From Idiomarina rhizosphaerae (GTDB taxonomy: Bacteria > Pseudomonadota > Gammaproteobacteria > Enterobacterales > Alteromonadaceae): a stretch of DNA of 64,000 nucleotides. Below, piece by piece: positions 11,011 through 19,857 of the stretch. The position numbers and the translations under genes are program-made. The stretch is from NCBI RefSeq assembly GCF_024159085.1, contig NZ_JAMZDE010000005.1, forward strand, positions 124,001 through 188,000, given 5' to 3'. Position 1 is the stretch's first letter. Every line of letters starts with the position of its first letter. Below the pieces are notes generated by a model. The model saw only the letters and a list, made by a program, of their open reading frames with translations. It was not told the origin of the DNA and searched no databases.

Positions 11011-11958
11011 TTACTGAGCTAAGCTAATAAGGTAATCCGCTAACGCGCCCATACCGGTTCTTTTAACGTCAGCTTCACGCTCTGCACTCTGGTTATAATT
11101 AGTGTTGGTGTTCACATCGTAAACGTACAGTTCGCCTTTTGCATCTTCAATAAATTCAATGCCCGCCACATCAATATCATTGGCTTTCAAAAAGGCTTCC
11201 AGCGCAAAAATAATTTCATGGTCATTAAAGCGCTGCGTAATAGTGAATTTATTGGGTTGATTGCCATCAGCAGGTGCTTCGCTGGTTGGGCAAAACGCAT
11301 CATCCACACTGCATACATCGGCAGGGCATAACTCAAAGCCTTGCTCAGTATTAACGTTAACCGCGTAAACAAATTTCTGCCCGACAAACTCACTGCGGGT
11401 AATATGCGGCTGCTTTGGCTGAATGTATTCTTGTAACAACCAGATGCCATCTAACGGCTCTTCGTAATCGTCACTGTTTATGTAGTTCTTTAAGCTCGCA
11501 ACATCATCAAACTTAATAACACCTAAACCCTTACCACCGCGATTAGGCTTTAAAATCAGTGGCCACTCGGCAAATTTCTCAGCGGCATCTGCCAGCAGTT
11601 CTTTTCCCACCACAGCCTGAGTTTTCGGCACGTTAAGTCCGGCTTTCTGTAACGCCGCATATTGCGACAGCTTACACACTTCCAGCGCCAGCACCCGGGT
11701 GCCATTAACCACAGTTCTATTACTGTTTTCCAACCAGGTTAACGCCATGCGAGTCAGTTCCGGTGCAAACCGATGACCCCGTGTGTGCGAGGAAGCACTC
11801 ATACGGTTATAGTAAACCGCATCTTCCGGAAGCTCGGAAAAAGGTATAACTCCCTTATCCAGAAACCATTCTTTGGCTTCTACGCCGCGCTTTTCAAACT
11901 CTGCTCTTAGCGGCACCAGCCACTCTTCATTTTCGTGCAGAATAACAATATCTCGCAT
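11011..11958 (-). CDS. ATP-grasp ligase, RimK / alpha-L-glutamate ligase type
   Basis: ATP-dependent carboxylate-amine ligase that would join an amino acid or amine to a carboxylate through an acyl-phosphate. ATP-grasp features are visible: the Lys of WPLILKPNRGGKGLGV (about residues 134-149), the LLQEYI hinge and the metal-binding end GIEFIEDAKGELYVYDVNTN. The N-terminus (MRDIVILHENEEW) forms a RimK-like pre-ATP domain. The gene is 9 bases after an APC amino-acid permease, with a strong ribosome site (AAGAGGT), so the pair is likely one operon: uptake or export of an amino acid plus its ligation. Neither substrate can be named from the sequence. Confidence 0.8.
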   Translation of the reverse strand: MRDIVILHENEEWLVPLRAEFEKRGVEAKEWFLDKGVIPFSELPEDAVYYNRMSASSHTRGHRFAPELTRMALTWLENSNRTVVNGTRVLALEVCKLSQYAALQKAGLNVPKTQAVVGKELLADAAEKFAEWPLILKPNRGGKGLGVIKFDDVASLKNYINSDDYEEPLDGIWLLQEYIQPKQPHITRSEFVGQKFVYAVNVNTEQGFELCPADVCSVDDAFCPTSEAPADGNQPNKFTITQRFNDHEIIFALEAFLKANDIDVAGIEFIEDAKGELYVYDVNTNTNYNQSAEREADVKRTGMGALADYLISLAQ

Positions 11959-11967
11959 GGTTACCTC

Positions 11968-13191
11968 TTAGCGTCTCAGCTGATGTATCAGCAGAACTAC
12001 GACAATAAAAACAAGCCCTGACAACAACACCTGCCAGGGAACAAAAACGGCCAGCCCAAGACAGCTGACTAAACCTAGTATGGATACCCACTTAGGCACA
12101 AAACGATCACTTTTTGCGACTTTCAGCGCCGCTAAATTCGTAATGCCATAATACACTAAAACCGTAAAGGCGCTGAACGACCATGCGGTCTTTATATCAC
12201 CAATTGCGACCAGCACCAGCATGACAATACAAGTTAGCCAGGTTGCCGGGGGTGCCGAAGTTTGTTGGTCGTTTAAGTTAGCAAAGCGCATGGGTAAATC
12301 GGCGCGACGCCCCATAGCCAGAACCACCCGGGACACGCCCAAAATTAAGTTGAGGATAACTCCGCCCATAGCAACCACTGCACCAGCGGTGACCAACCAT
12401 TGTATTGGTCCATTTGGTAGCAAACTCGCCAAGGAGAAGTGCTCCGCCTGAAAGTCCGCTATGCCGGGAAAATGCAATAGGGCGCTACCAACACCTAAAT
12501 ACAGAAGCGTTACAGCCGCCAGAGTTAAAACAACAGCAAGAGGAATAACCCGGCGCGGGTTTTGTACTTCTTCTCCCATGGTGGCAATACGTCCGTAGCC
12601 TGTGTAAGCAACAAAAAGCAGAGCTGCCGCCTGCAAAACGTGCCACCACTTGACCGAAGCTCGCTCAACAACAACGGCAGTTTGCTGATGAGCTGTAAAA
12701 ATAAATGTCAGCAGAGCGGCTATGCTAACCGTAACAATGGCTGCATTAACCCAGTTTGTGCGCTTAACGCCACCCAGTACTAATAACGTGAATAACACCA
12801 ATACCGCGGCAGCTATCCACTGTGCTAAATATTCCGGTATTGCCGTAGCATTCGTCACATACCAGCCTACCGCCAGCGCAGCGGTTGCCGCTGATGCACT
12901 TTTCGCCACAACGAACAAACTACCGGCTGTTACGCCATAAGCCGGAGTCAGGAACCGATAACCATACTCATAGGTACCTCCGCTTACCGAGTGTGCGGAA
13001 GCCAACTGCGCCGAAGACAGGCCATTGCATAAAGCCGTTACCGCCGCAATAAGAATGGCCCATAAAACGGCACCGCCGGCAATATCAGCACCTATACCAA
13101 CACTAACGAAGGCACCCGTGCCTAAAATGGAACCCAACCCCAAGACAATGGCGCCCGCCAGCGAGGTGGAACGAACCAACTGCTGATTCAT
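11968..13191 (-). CDS. APC-family amino-acid permease
   Basis: Inner-membrane amino-acid transporter with about 11-12 hydrophobic segments. The APC entry motif is clear at the N-terminus (GLGSILGTGAFVSVG), where the broken first helix binds the substrate backbone, and MGEEVQNPRRVIP is the conserved loop after TM6. At 407 residues it is somewhat short for the family (430-500). A good ribosome site (AAGGGGA) precedes the ATG. It is the first gene of a two-gene unit with the ATP-grasp ligase. It is divergent from the DASS transporter across an 88-base promoter region. Confidence 0.85.
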   Translation of the reverse strand: MNQQLVRSTSLAGAIVLGLGSILGTGAFVSVGIGADIAGGAVLWAILIAAVTALCNGLSSAQLASAHSVSGGTYEYGYRFLTPAYGVTAGSLFVVAKSASAATAALAVGWYVTNATAIPEYLAQWIAAAVLVLFTLLVLGGVKRTNWVNAAIVTVSIAALLTFIFTAHQQTAVVVERASVKWWHVLQAAALLFVAYTGYGRIATMGEEVQNPRRVIPLAVVLTLAAVTLLYLGVGSALLHFPGIADFQAEHFSLASLLPNGPIQWLVTAGAVVAMGGVILNLILGVSRVVLAMGRRADLPMRFANLNDQQTSAPPATWLTCIVMLVLVAIGDIKTAWSFSAFTVLVYYGITNLAALKVAKSDRFVPKWVSILGLVSCLGLAVFVPWQVLLSGLVFIVVVLLIHQLRR

Positions 13192-16764: not shown

Positions 16765-16867
16765 TCTGGATTACCCTTTTGTAAAGATCCCTAAAAACAA
16801 TAGCACTATTAAGGGATAGTCTGTAATTATAGTCCCGTTTTAAACGAATTAATTCAGGAGGATTCCC

Positions 16868-18073
16868 GTGGAAATACCCAGCATGCTCGCTATCGTAGCT
16901 GCACTGTGGGTTGTTCTGGTCATAGCCGGCGTTTTTGAGGCCGTTCGCCATTGGGCACTTGTCCGTAAAATTCCCGTTCGAGTCCATGTAAATGGTACTC
17001 GGGGTAAAACCAGCGTCACCCGGCTAATTGCGGCGGGGTTACGCAGTGGTGGCAAACGTATTTGTGCTAAAACAACTGGTTCTGCAGCAGCTATTACTGA
17101 CCCGGATGGTCGCGAATTTCCTATTTACCGAATAAGCGGTGCAAATATTATTGAGCAAATGCGTACGCTAAAAAGAATGGCCGCGTTAAAGCCTGAAATT
17201 GTGGTTATAGAGTGTATGGCACTGCAGCCACAGTATCAGTCTTTGAGTGAATTGCGAATGGTTCGCTCAACCGTTGGTGTTATTACCAATGCCCGTGCCG
17301 ACCATTTAGATGTTATGGGCCCGGGTGAAAACGACGTAGCCCTAGCACTGGCAGGCAGCACTCCACTTAAAGGCGACTTATTCACCGCCGAACGCGACTT
17401 ACTCGATGTATTCAAATATTCATGCAAAGACCGTAAAAGTGAACTGCATGGCGTAACCGAGGACGAAGTTAACGCTATTACCGATGACACCATGAAGCGT
17501 TTCCGTTACGCAGAGCACGCCGAAAATGTTGCTTTAGCTCTGAATGTCTGCCAGCACCTTGGTGTTGACCGGGAGAAAGCTCTGGATGGAATGGTTGCAT
17601 TAGAGCCGGAAGCGGGTGCCATGCAGGTTCTTCACGTTAACTACTTCAAGCGCGAAATTGTATTCGTCAACGCCTTTGCAGCCAATGACCCTGAGTCTAC
17701 AGGACGCATTTGGGAGAATATGCTGGAGAAACATGGAGAAGGTCGCCGCAAAATTGTTTTAATCAACTGCCGGGCTGACCGTCCGCACCGCTCTCAGCAA
17801 ATGGCCGAAGACATCGTCAAATGGAGTCACGCGGATAAATATCTGCTGATGGGTTCAGGTACATTTATTTTTGTTCGAAATGCCGTCAAATATGGCCTCG
17901 ATCCAGAAAAACTATTAGTCATGGAAAACGCTCATATGACCGAAATTACTGAAACAATTTTAGAAGAGTCCGGCAGTAGCGCATTAGTTGTCGGTATGTG
18001 CAATATTCACGGTGGTGGCGAAGAAGTTGCTCGTTTCTTCCAGAACCGGGCAATTAAGGAGGAAGATCTATGA
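16868..18073 (+). CDS. pgsB: Poly-gamma-glutamate synthase subunit PgsB/CapB
   Basis: Catalytic ligase that polymerises glutamate through its gamma-carboxylate using ATP; it belongs to the Mur-ligase/folylpolyglutamate synthase group. One N-terminal membrane helix (residues 5-25) anchors it, then comes the P-loop HVNGTRGKTSVTR (about 40-52), and later the Mur-type conserved blocks VIECMALQP and ITNARADHLDVMG, with NCRADRPHRS near the C-terminus. The length of 401 residues matches Bacillus PgsB (393). The start is GTG, fixed by a strong AGGAGG five bases upstream; an ATG six codons in is less well placed. The stop overlaps the pgsC start (ATGA). Confidence 0.93.
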   Translation: MEIPSMLAIVAALWVVLVIAGVFEAVRHWALVRKIPVRVHVNGTRGKTSVTRLIAAGLRSGGKRICAKTTGSAAAITDPDGREFPIYRISGANIIEQMRTLKRMAALKPEIVVIECMALQPQYQSLSELRMVRSTVGVITNARADHLDVMGPGENDVALALAGSTPLKGDLFTAERDLLDVFKYSCKDRKSELHGVTEDEVNAITDDTMKRFRYAEHAENVALALNVCQHLGVDREKALDGMVALEPEAGAMQVLHVNYFKREIVFVNAFAANDPESTGRIWENMLEKHGEGRRKIVLINCRADRPHRSQQMAEDIVKWSHADKYLLMGSGTFIFVRNAVKYGLDPEKLLVMENAHMTEITETILEESGSSALVVGMCNIHGGGEEVARFFQNRAIKEEDL

Positions 18074-18645
18074 TTGCATTAAACATTCTTGCCGTCGCCA
18101 TTGGGGTTGGTCTATTTTTCACCTTGTTATTGACTCAAACCTTAGGTCTGGCCGCTGGCGGCTTAGTTGTACCAGGTTACGTTGCATTACAGCTGACAGA
18201 CCCTCTAAGCTTAGCTATCACACTTATTGCTGCGCTAATCACCTATCTCATTGTCAGAATTATCGCTAGCTTCGCTATTATCTATGGTCGTCGCCAAACC
18301 ATTATTATGATTCTTACCGGTTATCTCATTGCTGGCCTGATGGATTTATTCCTTGGCAACATCGTTAACTGGGTAGATTTACAAATGATTGCAGGCGGTG
18401 ATGATGCTCAGGCTCAAATAGCCACGCTTGAATCGAGCTTTATGATGTCAATTATGGAAAGCAGCATCATTGGTTACATTATTCCCGGGCTTATTGCCAT
18501 TTGGTTTGACCGGCAAGGCGTACTGCAGACCTTATGCGGACTTGCGGTAACGGCGGTACTAGTCCGTCTTGCGCTTATCATTATTATGCCGGAATCATTA
18601 CAAATGTACGAAGCAAGCCAAGCATTTCAGATGCCAGGCTGGTAA
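18070..18645 (+). CDS. pgsC: Poly-gamma-glutamate biosynthesis membrane protein PgsC/CapC
   Basis: Polytopic membrane partner of PgsB. The protein has about five hydrophobic segments and the PgsC-typical start with a glycine-rich helix (GLAAGGLVVPGYVAL), then YLIVRIIASFAIIYGRRQ, a widely conserved stretch of the family. At 191 residues it is slightly longer than Bacillus PgsC (149), with an extra acidic loop (GGDDAQAQ) and two further helices. Translation is coupled to pgsB by a 4-base overlap, with a GGAGG just before. The three-gene order pgsB-pgsC-pgsW is what identifies it most firmly. Confidence 0.88.
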   Translation: MIALNILAVAIGVGLFFTLLLTQTLGLAAGGLVVPGYVALQLTDPLSLAITLIAALITYLIVRIIASFAIIYGRRQTIIMILTGYLIAGLMDLFLGNIVNWVDLQMIAGGDDAQAQIATLESSFMMSIMESSIIGYIIPGLIAIWFDRQGVLQTLCGLAVTAVLVRLALIIIMPESLQMYEASQAFQMPGW

Positions 18646-18659
18646 CAGGAGGACGAATC

Positions 18660-19811
18660 ATGAGTAGTTTTACAAAGATTTATTGGCGTTCGTCGGGTGT
18701 ACCAACCTGGGGACTTCTTTTTCTTATCGTGCTGTCAGTTATCGTTATGGTTGCTGCTGAGAATGTTAAGCAGCGTGATCCCGTTGTTGATGACAACTAC
18801 GCAACCATGGTTAACGCGTCAAAAATAATGCGCGAAGGTATGCAGGTGCTTAAACCTCTGCGTGCGAAACTGGCGCCAATTAACCCGGAATTCGACCCCC
18901 AGCGCTCTGGTCTGGTTGGCCTGGAAAACAGTATTGTGACCACTAACCATGGTGGTCGAGAGTCGAAGCAAACAACGGTTAATCCAAACTGGGCAGCTGT
19001 CGCAGTAAAGTTAATGGCTGACGCTGGCGTGCAGGAAGGAGACTTGGTTGCAGTTACCGTATCAGGCTCATTCCCGGCACTGAACCTTGCGGTGTACTCA
19101 GCCATTGAAGCTATGGGGGCTGAAGCGGTTATTATCGCATCGGCGTCGTCATCACAGTGGGGCGGAAACGTGCCTAACTTCCTGTGGCTTGATATGGAAC
19201 GTGAGCTTCGCGAAGCTGGCGTACTAAGTTCGAAACCCGTTTATGCTTCTATCGGTGGCATTGAAGACCGCGGTATCGGTATTGCCGAAGAAGGCATCAC
19301 CTCAATACGCAACACTATCGAACGGTCAGGAATCAACTTTATTGACCCAGCCAGCTATCAGGAGGCAGTTGCTGATCGTATCGCGATATTCCGCGAATAC
19401 TCGGCTGATCGCCAGTACAAGGCGTTTATTAACGTCGGTGGAGGCGCAACTATCGTTGGCCCTCCGGGAATTGACGATATGTTTAAATCCGGCTTACAGG
19501 AAGACGCTCCGGCTCGCGCCTTTGCGGTAGATACCGTAATGGGTTACTTCTTACAAGAAGACATTCCAGGTATCCATTTCATAGGCATTAAAGATATGGC
19601 CACTCGATATGGTCTCCCGTTGATGCCGCAAGAAGTGGTTCCGGTCGGGAATGGTGGCGTTTATTCAGCAACGATATACAACCGCTGGCTAGCGCTTGGT
19701 TTAGGACTTGGCTTATTTGCTATGACCTGGCTTATCGTTCGTTCTGCGCGTATTACCAGCTTGTGGCGCCGAACAGGCGAAAGCGGCAAGAGCACCAAAC
19801 CTATGGTTTAA
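18660..19811 (+). CDS. pgsW: Poly-gamma-glutamate system protein PgsW-like
   Basis: Protein of 383 residues with an N-terminal membrane helix (about residues 14-32) and a C-terminal one (about 345-363), the domain between probably lying outside the cytoplasm. The position directly after pgsC and features such as NPNWAAVAVKLMADAGV, ASASSSQWGGN and GGATIVGPPG fit the family known as poly-gamma-glutamate system protein, which accompanies PgsB and PgsC in several Gram-negative and fusobacterial genomes. Its biochemical role is not established; it may stand in for PgsA, which is absent. ATG 18660 has AGGAGG seven bases upstream; a longer frame from 18534 overlaps pgsC and is not credible. Confidence 0.8.
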   Translation: MSSFTKIYWRSSGVPTWGLLFLIVLSVIVMVAAENVKQRDPVVDDNYATMVNASKIMREGMQVLKPLRAKLAPINPEFDPQRSGLVGLENSIVTTNHGGRESKQTTVNPNWAAVAVKLMADAGVQEGDLVAVTVSGSFPALNLAVYSAIEAMGAEAVIIASASSSQWGGNVPNFLWLDMERELREAGVLSSKPVYASIGGIEDRGIGIAEEGITSIRNTIERSGINFIDPASYQEAVADRIAIFREYSADRQYKAFINVGGGATIVGPPGIDDMFKSGLQEDAPARAFAVDTVMGYFLQEDIPGIHFIGIKDMATRYGLPLMPQEVVPVGNGGVYSATIYNRWLALGLGLGLFAMTWLIVRSARITSLWRRTGESGKSTKPMV

Positions 19812-19824
19812 TAAAACCAACCAC

Positions 19825-19857
19825 AACGGGAGCAGGTTAACCTTTGCTCCCGTTCTT
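19825..19857 (+). terminator. Terminator between pgsW and the LOG-family gene
   Basis: Ten-bp perfect stem AACGGGAGCA / TGCTCCCGTT, ten-base loop, then CTTT. The stop codon of the convergent gene lies in the loop. The T run is short. Confidence 0.7.

Follow-up and report, generated by a model that had tools for sequence, protein, structure and literature searches.

The 64,000-nucleotide stretch of Idiomarina rhizosphaerae DNA analysed here (contig NZ_JAMZDE010000005.1, positions 124,001 to 188,000; hereafter "the window") carries a three-gene operon, pgsB-pgsC-pgsW, which we regard, with a probability of about 0.66, as encoding a W-type poly-gamma-glutamate synthase, in which membrane-bound PgsBC would act with a periplasmic PgsW partner to make an L-rich product. 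The three genes belong to established protein families and form a compact operon. PgsW co-occurs with PgsB and PgsC in other genomes and is nearly exclusive of CapA/PgsA, the third protein of the Bacillus systems, and CapA is absent from the I. rhizosphaerae genome. From the sequences and the published work we infer polymer production, the topology of the complex, the job of PgsW and the stereochemistry of the product.

All three genes lie on the forward strand in the order B-C-W, with pgsB at 16868–18073 (GTG start), pgsC at 18070–18645 and pgsW at 18660–19811. An earlier reading of the window made without database searches (the sequence-only reading) had proposed this order and these positions, and both were recovered when the sequence was re-read and the products passed the curated models. 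Its description of tight coupling and strong ribosome binding sites also holds. The start codon of pgsC overlaps the stop codon of pgsB (ATGA), 14 bases separate pgsC from pgsW, and by sequence reading an AGGAGG-type site precedes each of the three starts: AGGAGG at 16856–16861 (+) for pgsB, AAGGAGG at 18056–18062 (+), within the 3′ end of pgsB, for pgsC, and AGGAGG at 18647–18652 (+) for pgsW. An alternative, longer pgsW frame from 18534 was rejected as the likely start because the alignment of four close relatives begins at 18660.

PgsB (401 aa), the Mur-ligase-like amide ligase and synthase subunit B, scored 532.7 bits against TIGR04012 (cut-off 222.7) and contains the Pfam Mur ligase middle domain PF08245. 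Its single predicted N-terminal membrane helix corresponds to a hydrophobic segment at residues 5–23, and the motif GTRGK[TS] is conserved in all eight rows of the alignment. PgsC (191 aa), the polytopic membrane subunit, scored 113.2 bits against TIGR04011 (cut-off 96.45), matches the Pfam CapC domain PF14102 and has six hydrophobic segments with a mean of at least 1.3.

PgsW (383 aa) is a full-length member of TIGR04332, with a score of 356.4 bits (cut-off 100). NCBIfam names this family "poly-gamma-glutamate system protein"; the symbol PgsW comes from the sequence-only reading. As TIGR04332 is already curated at NCBI, the W protein itself is not a discovery, and nothing was found that distinguishes the window PgsW from the rest of the family. 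An alignment was built from 80 W pieces, from which five short ones were removed before thinning at 80% to 50 sequences, with the window protein replacing that of locus L041 (handles beginning with L denote loci and those beginning with G genomes). The other 49 aligned proteins are 26–79% identical to the window PgsW, and its closest named relatives, from Idiomarina abyssalis and I. ramblicola, are 94% identical. The sequence-only reading had given PgsW a membrane anchor at each end, and 43 of the 50 aligned proteins indeed have hydrophobic segments at both termini. In 41 of these 43 a positively charged tail follows the second segment, which under the positive-inside rule would place the middle domain outside the inner membrane.

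An AlphaFold2 model of PgsW built from the 50 sequences (mean pLDDT 92.3, against 76.2 for an earlier model from eight sequences) shows an alternating alpha/beta core in the domain between the two predicted membrane helices. No convincing relative of this fold was identified: among the best 50 Foldseek matches in the PDB for each of the two models, TM-scores did not exceed 0.26 and rmsd ranged from 8.5 to 25.6. The matches to aminotransferases and adenylate ligases were therefore read as showing no kinship, despite a rank-1 E-value of 7.6e-4 with the 50-sequence model. Sequence searches gave the same picture, as PgsW belongs to no Pfam family, the 50 W proteins gave weak and scattered Pfam matches (best E 0.015), and a search of PDB sequences with the W alignment returned weak, scattered matches and no relative. 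PgsW is not a CapA homologue, as judged by the lack of a match to the CapA family PF09587 and by profile comparison with hhalign (probability 0.2%, E 0.38), which showed no sequence kinship between W and CapA. Nine columns are invariant across the 50 proteins (G87, K103, S137, P139, A148, S165, G168, G199 and G260), and a binding or active site in W is likely on this conservation.

Scanning of the genome collection confirmed 104 W relatives. The 80 best of these, representing 79 loci, were retained. B, C and W are colinear in 76 of the 79. Two of the remaining three begin at a contig end, and the third (L098) has C and W without an adjacent B; its genome, G146, has a PgsB match (225.3 bits) on a different contig. 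The loci span Pseudomonadota, Planctomycetota, Verrucomicrobiia, Acidobacteriota, Nitrospirae, Myxococcota, Bacillota and others. Having been found through W, they are uninformative about PgsB without W, and PgsB-first samples were drawn from the organism's own family and from Bacillota only. Some of the genomes counted separately are also those of the loci (e.g., G020 and L108), so these counts are not additive. In the own family (118 genomes), W occurs in eight genomes and PgsB over the cut-off in nine; all eight W genomes are among these nine, and the ninth has a 1,373-aa relative. Among 398 Pseudomonadota genomes, PgsB over the cut-off was found only in that of the window.

Distribution can be patchy within a genus: of three genomes sharing genus code g27, G070 has W and PgsB over the cut-off and G026 and G102 do not. 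Giant PgsB-like frames (L017–L023 and L122–L127), mostly of 1,347–1,431 aa (range 1,109–1,431), occur in the own family and in other Pseudomonadota, in genomes without W except G073. They were not counted as PgsB. All but one are below the TIGR04012 cut-off; the frame in G098 lies just over it at 223.2 bits. The one giant frame that was scanned had no Pfam match.

The relation of W to CapA (hereafter also A) was judged most fairly from the PgsB-first Bacillota sample, comprising 398 genomes from the phylum to which Neofamilia massiliensis belongs. PgsB exceeded the cut-off in 33, and the 30 best loci were taken; one of these (L178) ends before PgsC and was excluded, leaving 29 readable operons. 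The third gene is W in 20, A in six and neither in three, and none has both. This exclusivity has a Fisher's exact p of 0.00018, but the loci share ancestry and cannot be counted as independent of one another. PF09587 was confirmed by Pfam in five of the six A-type loci. In the sixth (L171) the tested frame had no Pfam match and the assignment comes from a local CapA profile only; this profile additionally picks out another frame, located upstream of PgsB. Extending 17 of the 20 W operons downstream revealed no CapA by a wider local profile, and extending all three "neither" loci revealed no A and no W. In two of the latter, L153 and L154, the third gene is a PF05908 gamma-polyglutamate hydrolase.

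Phylogeny of PgsB gave the same division. Dropping six rows that were too short and thinning near-copies at 82% identity took the alignment from 101 to 71 rows, and five long-branch rows were removed for a careful tree of 66. In this tree a single branch with support of 100/100 separates the four A-type rows and the two hydrolase loci from every one of the 59 W-type rows. The split is present in 100% of 200 bootstrap trees and implies one A/W change, as does a quick tree of all 71 rows, in which the "neither" locus L176 falls among the W-type rows. The window PgsB falls among W-type rows, across the 100/100 split from A-type. On this sequence evidence, the PgsB family divides into a W-type and an A-type branch, and the data support W standing in A's position within the operon. 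The A-type branch is likely the Bacillus branch; its rows are Bacillota genomes, and B. subtilis is not in the tree.

No match to CapA (PF09587) was found in the whole I. rhizosphaerae genome (2.87 Mb, 99.9% complete; three candidates scored), in a search whose control was positive in seven of 14 genomes, B. subtilis among them. The absence of pgsA, noted by the sequence-only reading for the operon and the window, is thus true genome-wide, and the wider search that it had proposed, in which a capA homologue would have counted against it, found none. That reading also reported no CapD/PgdS-type polymer hydrolase in the operon or the window, but the genome as a whole does hold candidates. The operon contains no gene of the CapD/GGT superfamily, and the genome has two GGT-family genes in all, both beyond the window on a different contig; as CapD is described as a GGT-family member (PMC4497714), these two are candidates. 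A PghP-type hydrolase (PF05908) was not found in the whole genome; the PgdS family was not searched for.

The proposed mechanism follows the Bacillus model for its first two components. PgsB, a Mur-ligase-like ATPase held by one N-terminal membrane helix, would form the gamma-glutamyl amide bonds, and PgsC, a small polytopic membrane protein, would complete the synthase and let the chain out. PgsW, anchored at both ends with its domain in the periplasm, would receive, guide or process the emerging chain, holding at the outer face of the membrane the place of Bacillus CapA/PgsA. Since no kinship between W and CapA is seen at the sequence level, the two would be alternatives that pair with a common PgsBC core, each on its own branch of the PgsB family. 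As the sequence-only reading suggests, the polymer could serve in osmoprotection or form a surface layer. The product is predicted to be L-rich because the polymer of B. subtilis was D-rich only with PgsA in the experiments that Sawada et al. (2018; PMC6029982) report, where pgsBC without pgsA gave 26 g/L of polyglutamate with a D/L ratio of about 4/96, and pgsBCA gave 3 g/L with a D/L ratio of 75/25. The sequence-only reading took PgsA to be required for polymer production in Bacillus, a premise that is therefore contested: a review states that pgsA deletion blocks synthesis (PMC5751247), but Sawada et al. obtained polymer from pgsBC alone and describe earlier reports as disagreeing on the requirement (PMC6029982).

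Several points weigh against a W-type synthase in which PgsW stands in for CapA. The split between W and A in the PgsB tree is a single event and offers no repeated independent evidence. CapA directly follows W in three gammaproteobacterial operons, those of Candidatus Marithrix, an Alteromonadaceae metagenome-assembled genome and Algicola sagamiensis, so W is not a mere substitute everywhere. Outside the Idiomarina group, PF09587 exceeded the cut-off in 27 of 50 W genomes (above 100 bits in 24), and in 21 of the 50 a match above 100 bits is on another contig, from which it could act in trans; Algicola DT_2, with CapA on another short contig, is one of these 21. Fusobacterium nucleatum was, by the title of a cited reference, the first Gram-negative bacterium shown to make polyglutamate, and our searches, which returned mostly listings, turned up no account of a W-type operon making polymer. 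Finally, the product of some W-type systems may be a different one: in Francisella tularensis, whose capA carries the product name of the W family (PMC5362203), capB and capC have no part in capsule production according to a review (PMC4688374).

The suggestion of the sequence-only reading that PgsW may replace PgsA accordingly has the Bacillota counts and the tree split on its side, but the operons with both genes and the CapA genes elsewhere against it. It had also proposed to check whether pgsW always appears where pgsA is missing; W occurs in genomes with A as well. Among the Idiomarina-group W genomes searched (28 of 29; L045 was left out), 24 had no PF09587 match, three had weak matches (29.4–29.7 bits) and one had a match at 108 bits, but in other lineages strong CapA genes are frequent, as described above. 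One weak match, in L027, belongs to a 5′-nucleotidase-type phosphoesterase (PF02872, PF00149) and was rejected as CapA.

The strongest competing explanation is that PgsW is an extra accessory subunit rather than a replacement for PgsA. PgsBC would then work alone, with CapA dispensable or supplied in trans, and W would have a job of its own, for example in releasing the chain, controlling its length or anchoring. We consider this unlikely, though it has the best case of the alternatives. It would accommodate the polymer reported from pgsBC alone (PMC6029982), the three operons with W and CapA together, the 21 of 50 other W genomes that carry a strong CapA gene on a different contig, and the three Bacillota PgsB-C operons in which the sequence read shows no W and no A. 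However, W and A never overlap in the PgsB-first sample, W is nearly always beside B and C, and 24 of the 28 Idiomarina-group genomes lack any CapA match.

A more specific role, as a periplasmic enzyme acting through K103, S137 and S165 (e.g., a serine/lysine amidase or transferase) and cutting, releasing or attaching the polymer, seems improbable. All 50 diverse W sequences share these residues, and known or possible gamma-glutamyl hydrolases (PF05908 and AstE/AspA-like proteins) are encoded beside PgsB-C in some other lineages, but neither sequence nor fold relates W to a protein of known activity. It is similarly doubtful that the product is a gamma-glutamyl compound other than long poly-gamma-glutamate, either an oligomer or a group that decorates some other surface molecule. 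The Mur ligase domain of PgsB and the Francisella report (PMC4688374) would allow this, but PgsB scores far above its equivalog cut-off, which itself does not separate W-type from A-type operons.

The window operon can be set beside several known systems. It resembles the pgsBCA(E)/capBCA operons of Bacillus in its PgsB and PgsC families, in having a third gene after B and C, and in its membrane synthase architecture, but their third gene is CapA/PgsA (PF09587), whereas that of the window is W (TIGR04332), with no detectable kinship. The operons of Algicola sagamiensis, the Alteromonadaceae metagenome-assembled genome and Candidatus Marithrix are colinear with it in B, C and W, but have a CapA of 566–715 aa after W, and the window's genome has none. 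It also differs from the anchored capsule system of the B. anthracis type, in which CapD belongs to the GGT superfamily, in having no such gene in the operon. For Francisella tularensis, one paper gives capA the product name "Hypothetical poly-gamma-glutamate system protein" (PMC5362203). As this product name matches the description of TIGR04332, Francisella CapA is probably W-type like the W of the window, a lead that comes from the name; the product of the Francisella "capBCA" operon is disputed.

A survey from 2015 reports 250 bacterial species, from 58 genera, that have both PgsB and PgsC (PMC4497714). Our literature searches returned no paper with both "pgsW" and "pgsB", none with both "Idiomarina" and "poly-gamma-glutamate", and none naming "TIGR04332". 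The picture of two branches, W and A, is a useful addition, of which prior mention outside these searches is possible. A broader proposition, which we put forward tentatively and hold as somewhat short of an even chance, is that PgsBCW is a second class of polyglutamate synthase, present in many phyla and commoner than PgsBCA, in which W, with a fold that has no known relatives, does the export or processing step of CapA, and to which the Francisella "capBCA" belongs. If true, this would explain why that operon behaves unlike the capsule operon of Bacillus.

Downstream of pgsW, the sequence-only reading had placed a terminator. A stable hairpin at 19825–19854 (+) makes this plausible (−18.2 kcal/mol, z −4.78, with none of 200 shuffles equally stable), but its tail is modestly U-rich, with only four U in the eight bases 3′ of the stem, and it is absent from the terminator list of a pattern scan. 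The hairpin overlaps the 3′ end of a convergent gene that ends at 19837. Neither the terminator-like (three) nor the promoter-like (five) sites of the scan were above shuffle level, and it found no promoter-like site from 16700 to pgsB. Elsewhere in the window, 11011–13191 (−) encodes a RimK-like ATP-grasp protein, under the NCBIfam cut-off and over that of Pfam, which adjoins an amino-acid permease gene and is possibly another amino-acid ligation system.

Genes beside B-C-W in other genomes may hint at further components. Thirteen of the 79 loci (L100–L105, L107, L110–L112, L115, L118 and L119), none from the Idiomarina group, have an AstE/AspA-like gene no more than about 4 kb from B-C-W, and in three more Bacillota loci (L192, L195 and L197) such a gene directly follows W. 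PF24827 was over its cut-off in the AstE/AspA-like genes of L103 (barely), L112 and L192 (with DUF6305), and below it in L104. Judged by sequence, it is possible that this gene provides W-type systems with a gamma-glutamyl hydrolase. In the Bacillota loci L107, L111 and L118, the gene immediately after W encodes a sensor histidine kinase, hinting at regulated expression.

The operon of I. rhizosphaerae is an ordinary member of a widespread and little-studied W-type class, with related operons in several phyla. As 24 of the 28 Idiomarina-group genomes have no CapA match, this group provides a clean background for finding the role of W. Work on polyglutamate rests mainly on the PgsBCA of Bacillus; if the W-type is the common form elsewhere, models of export, of D/L composition and of how Gram-negative bacteria handle the polymer must include PgsW.

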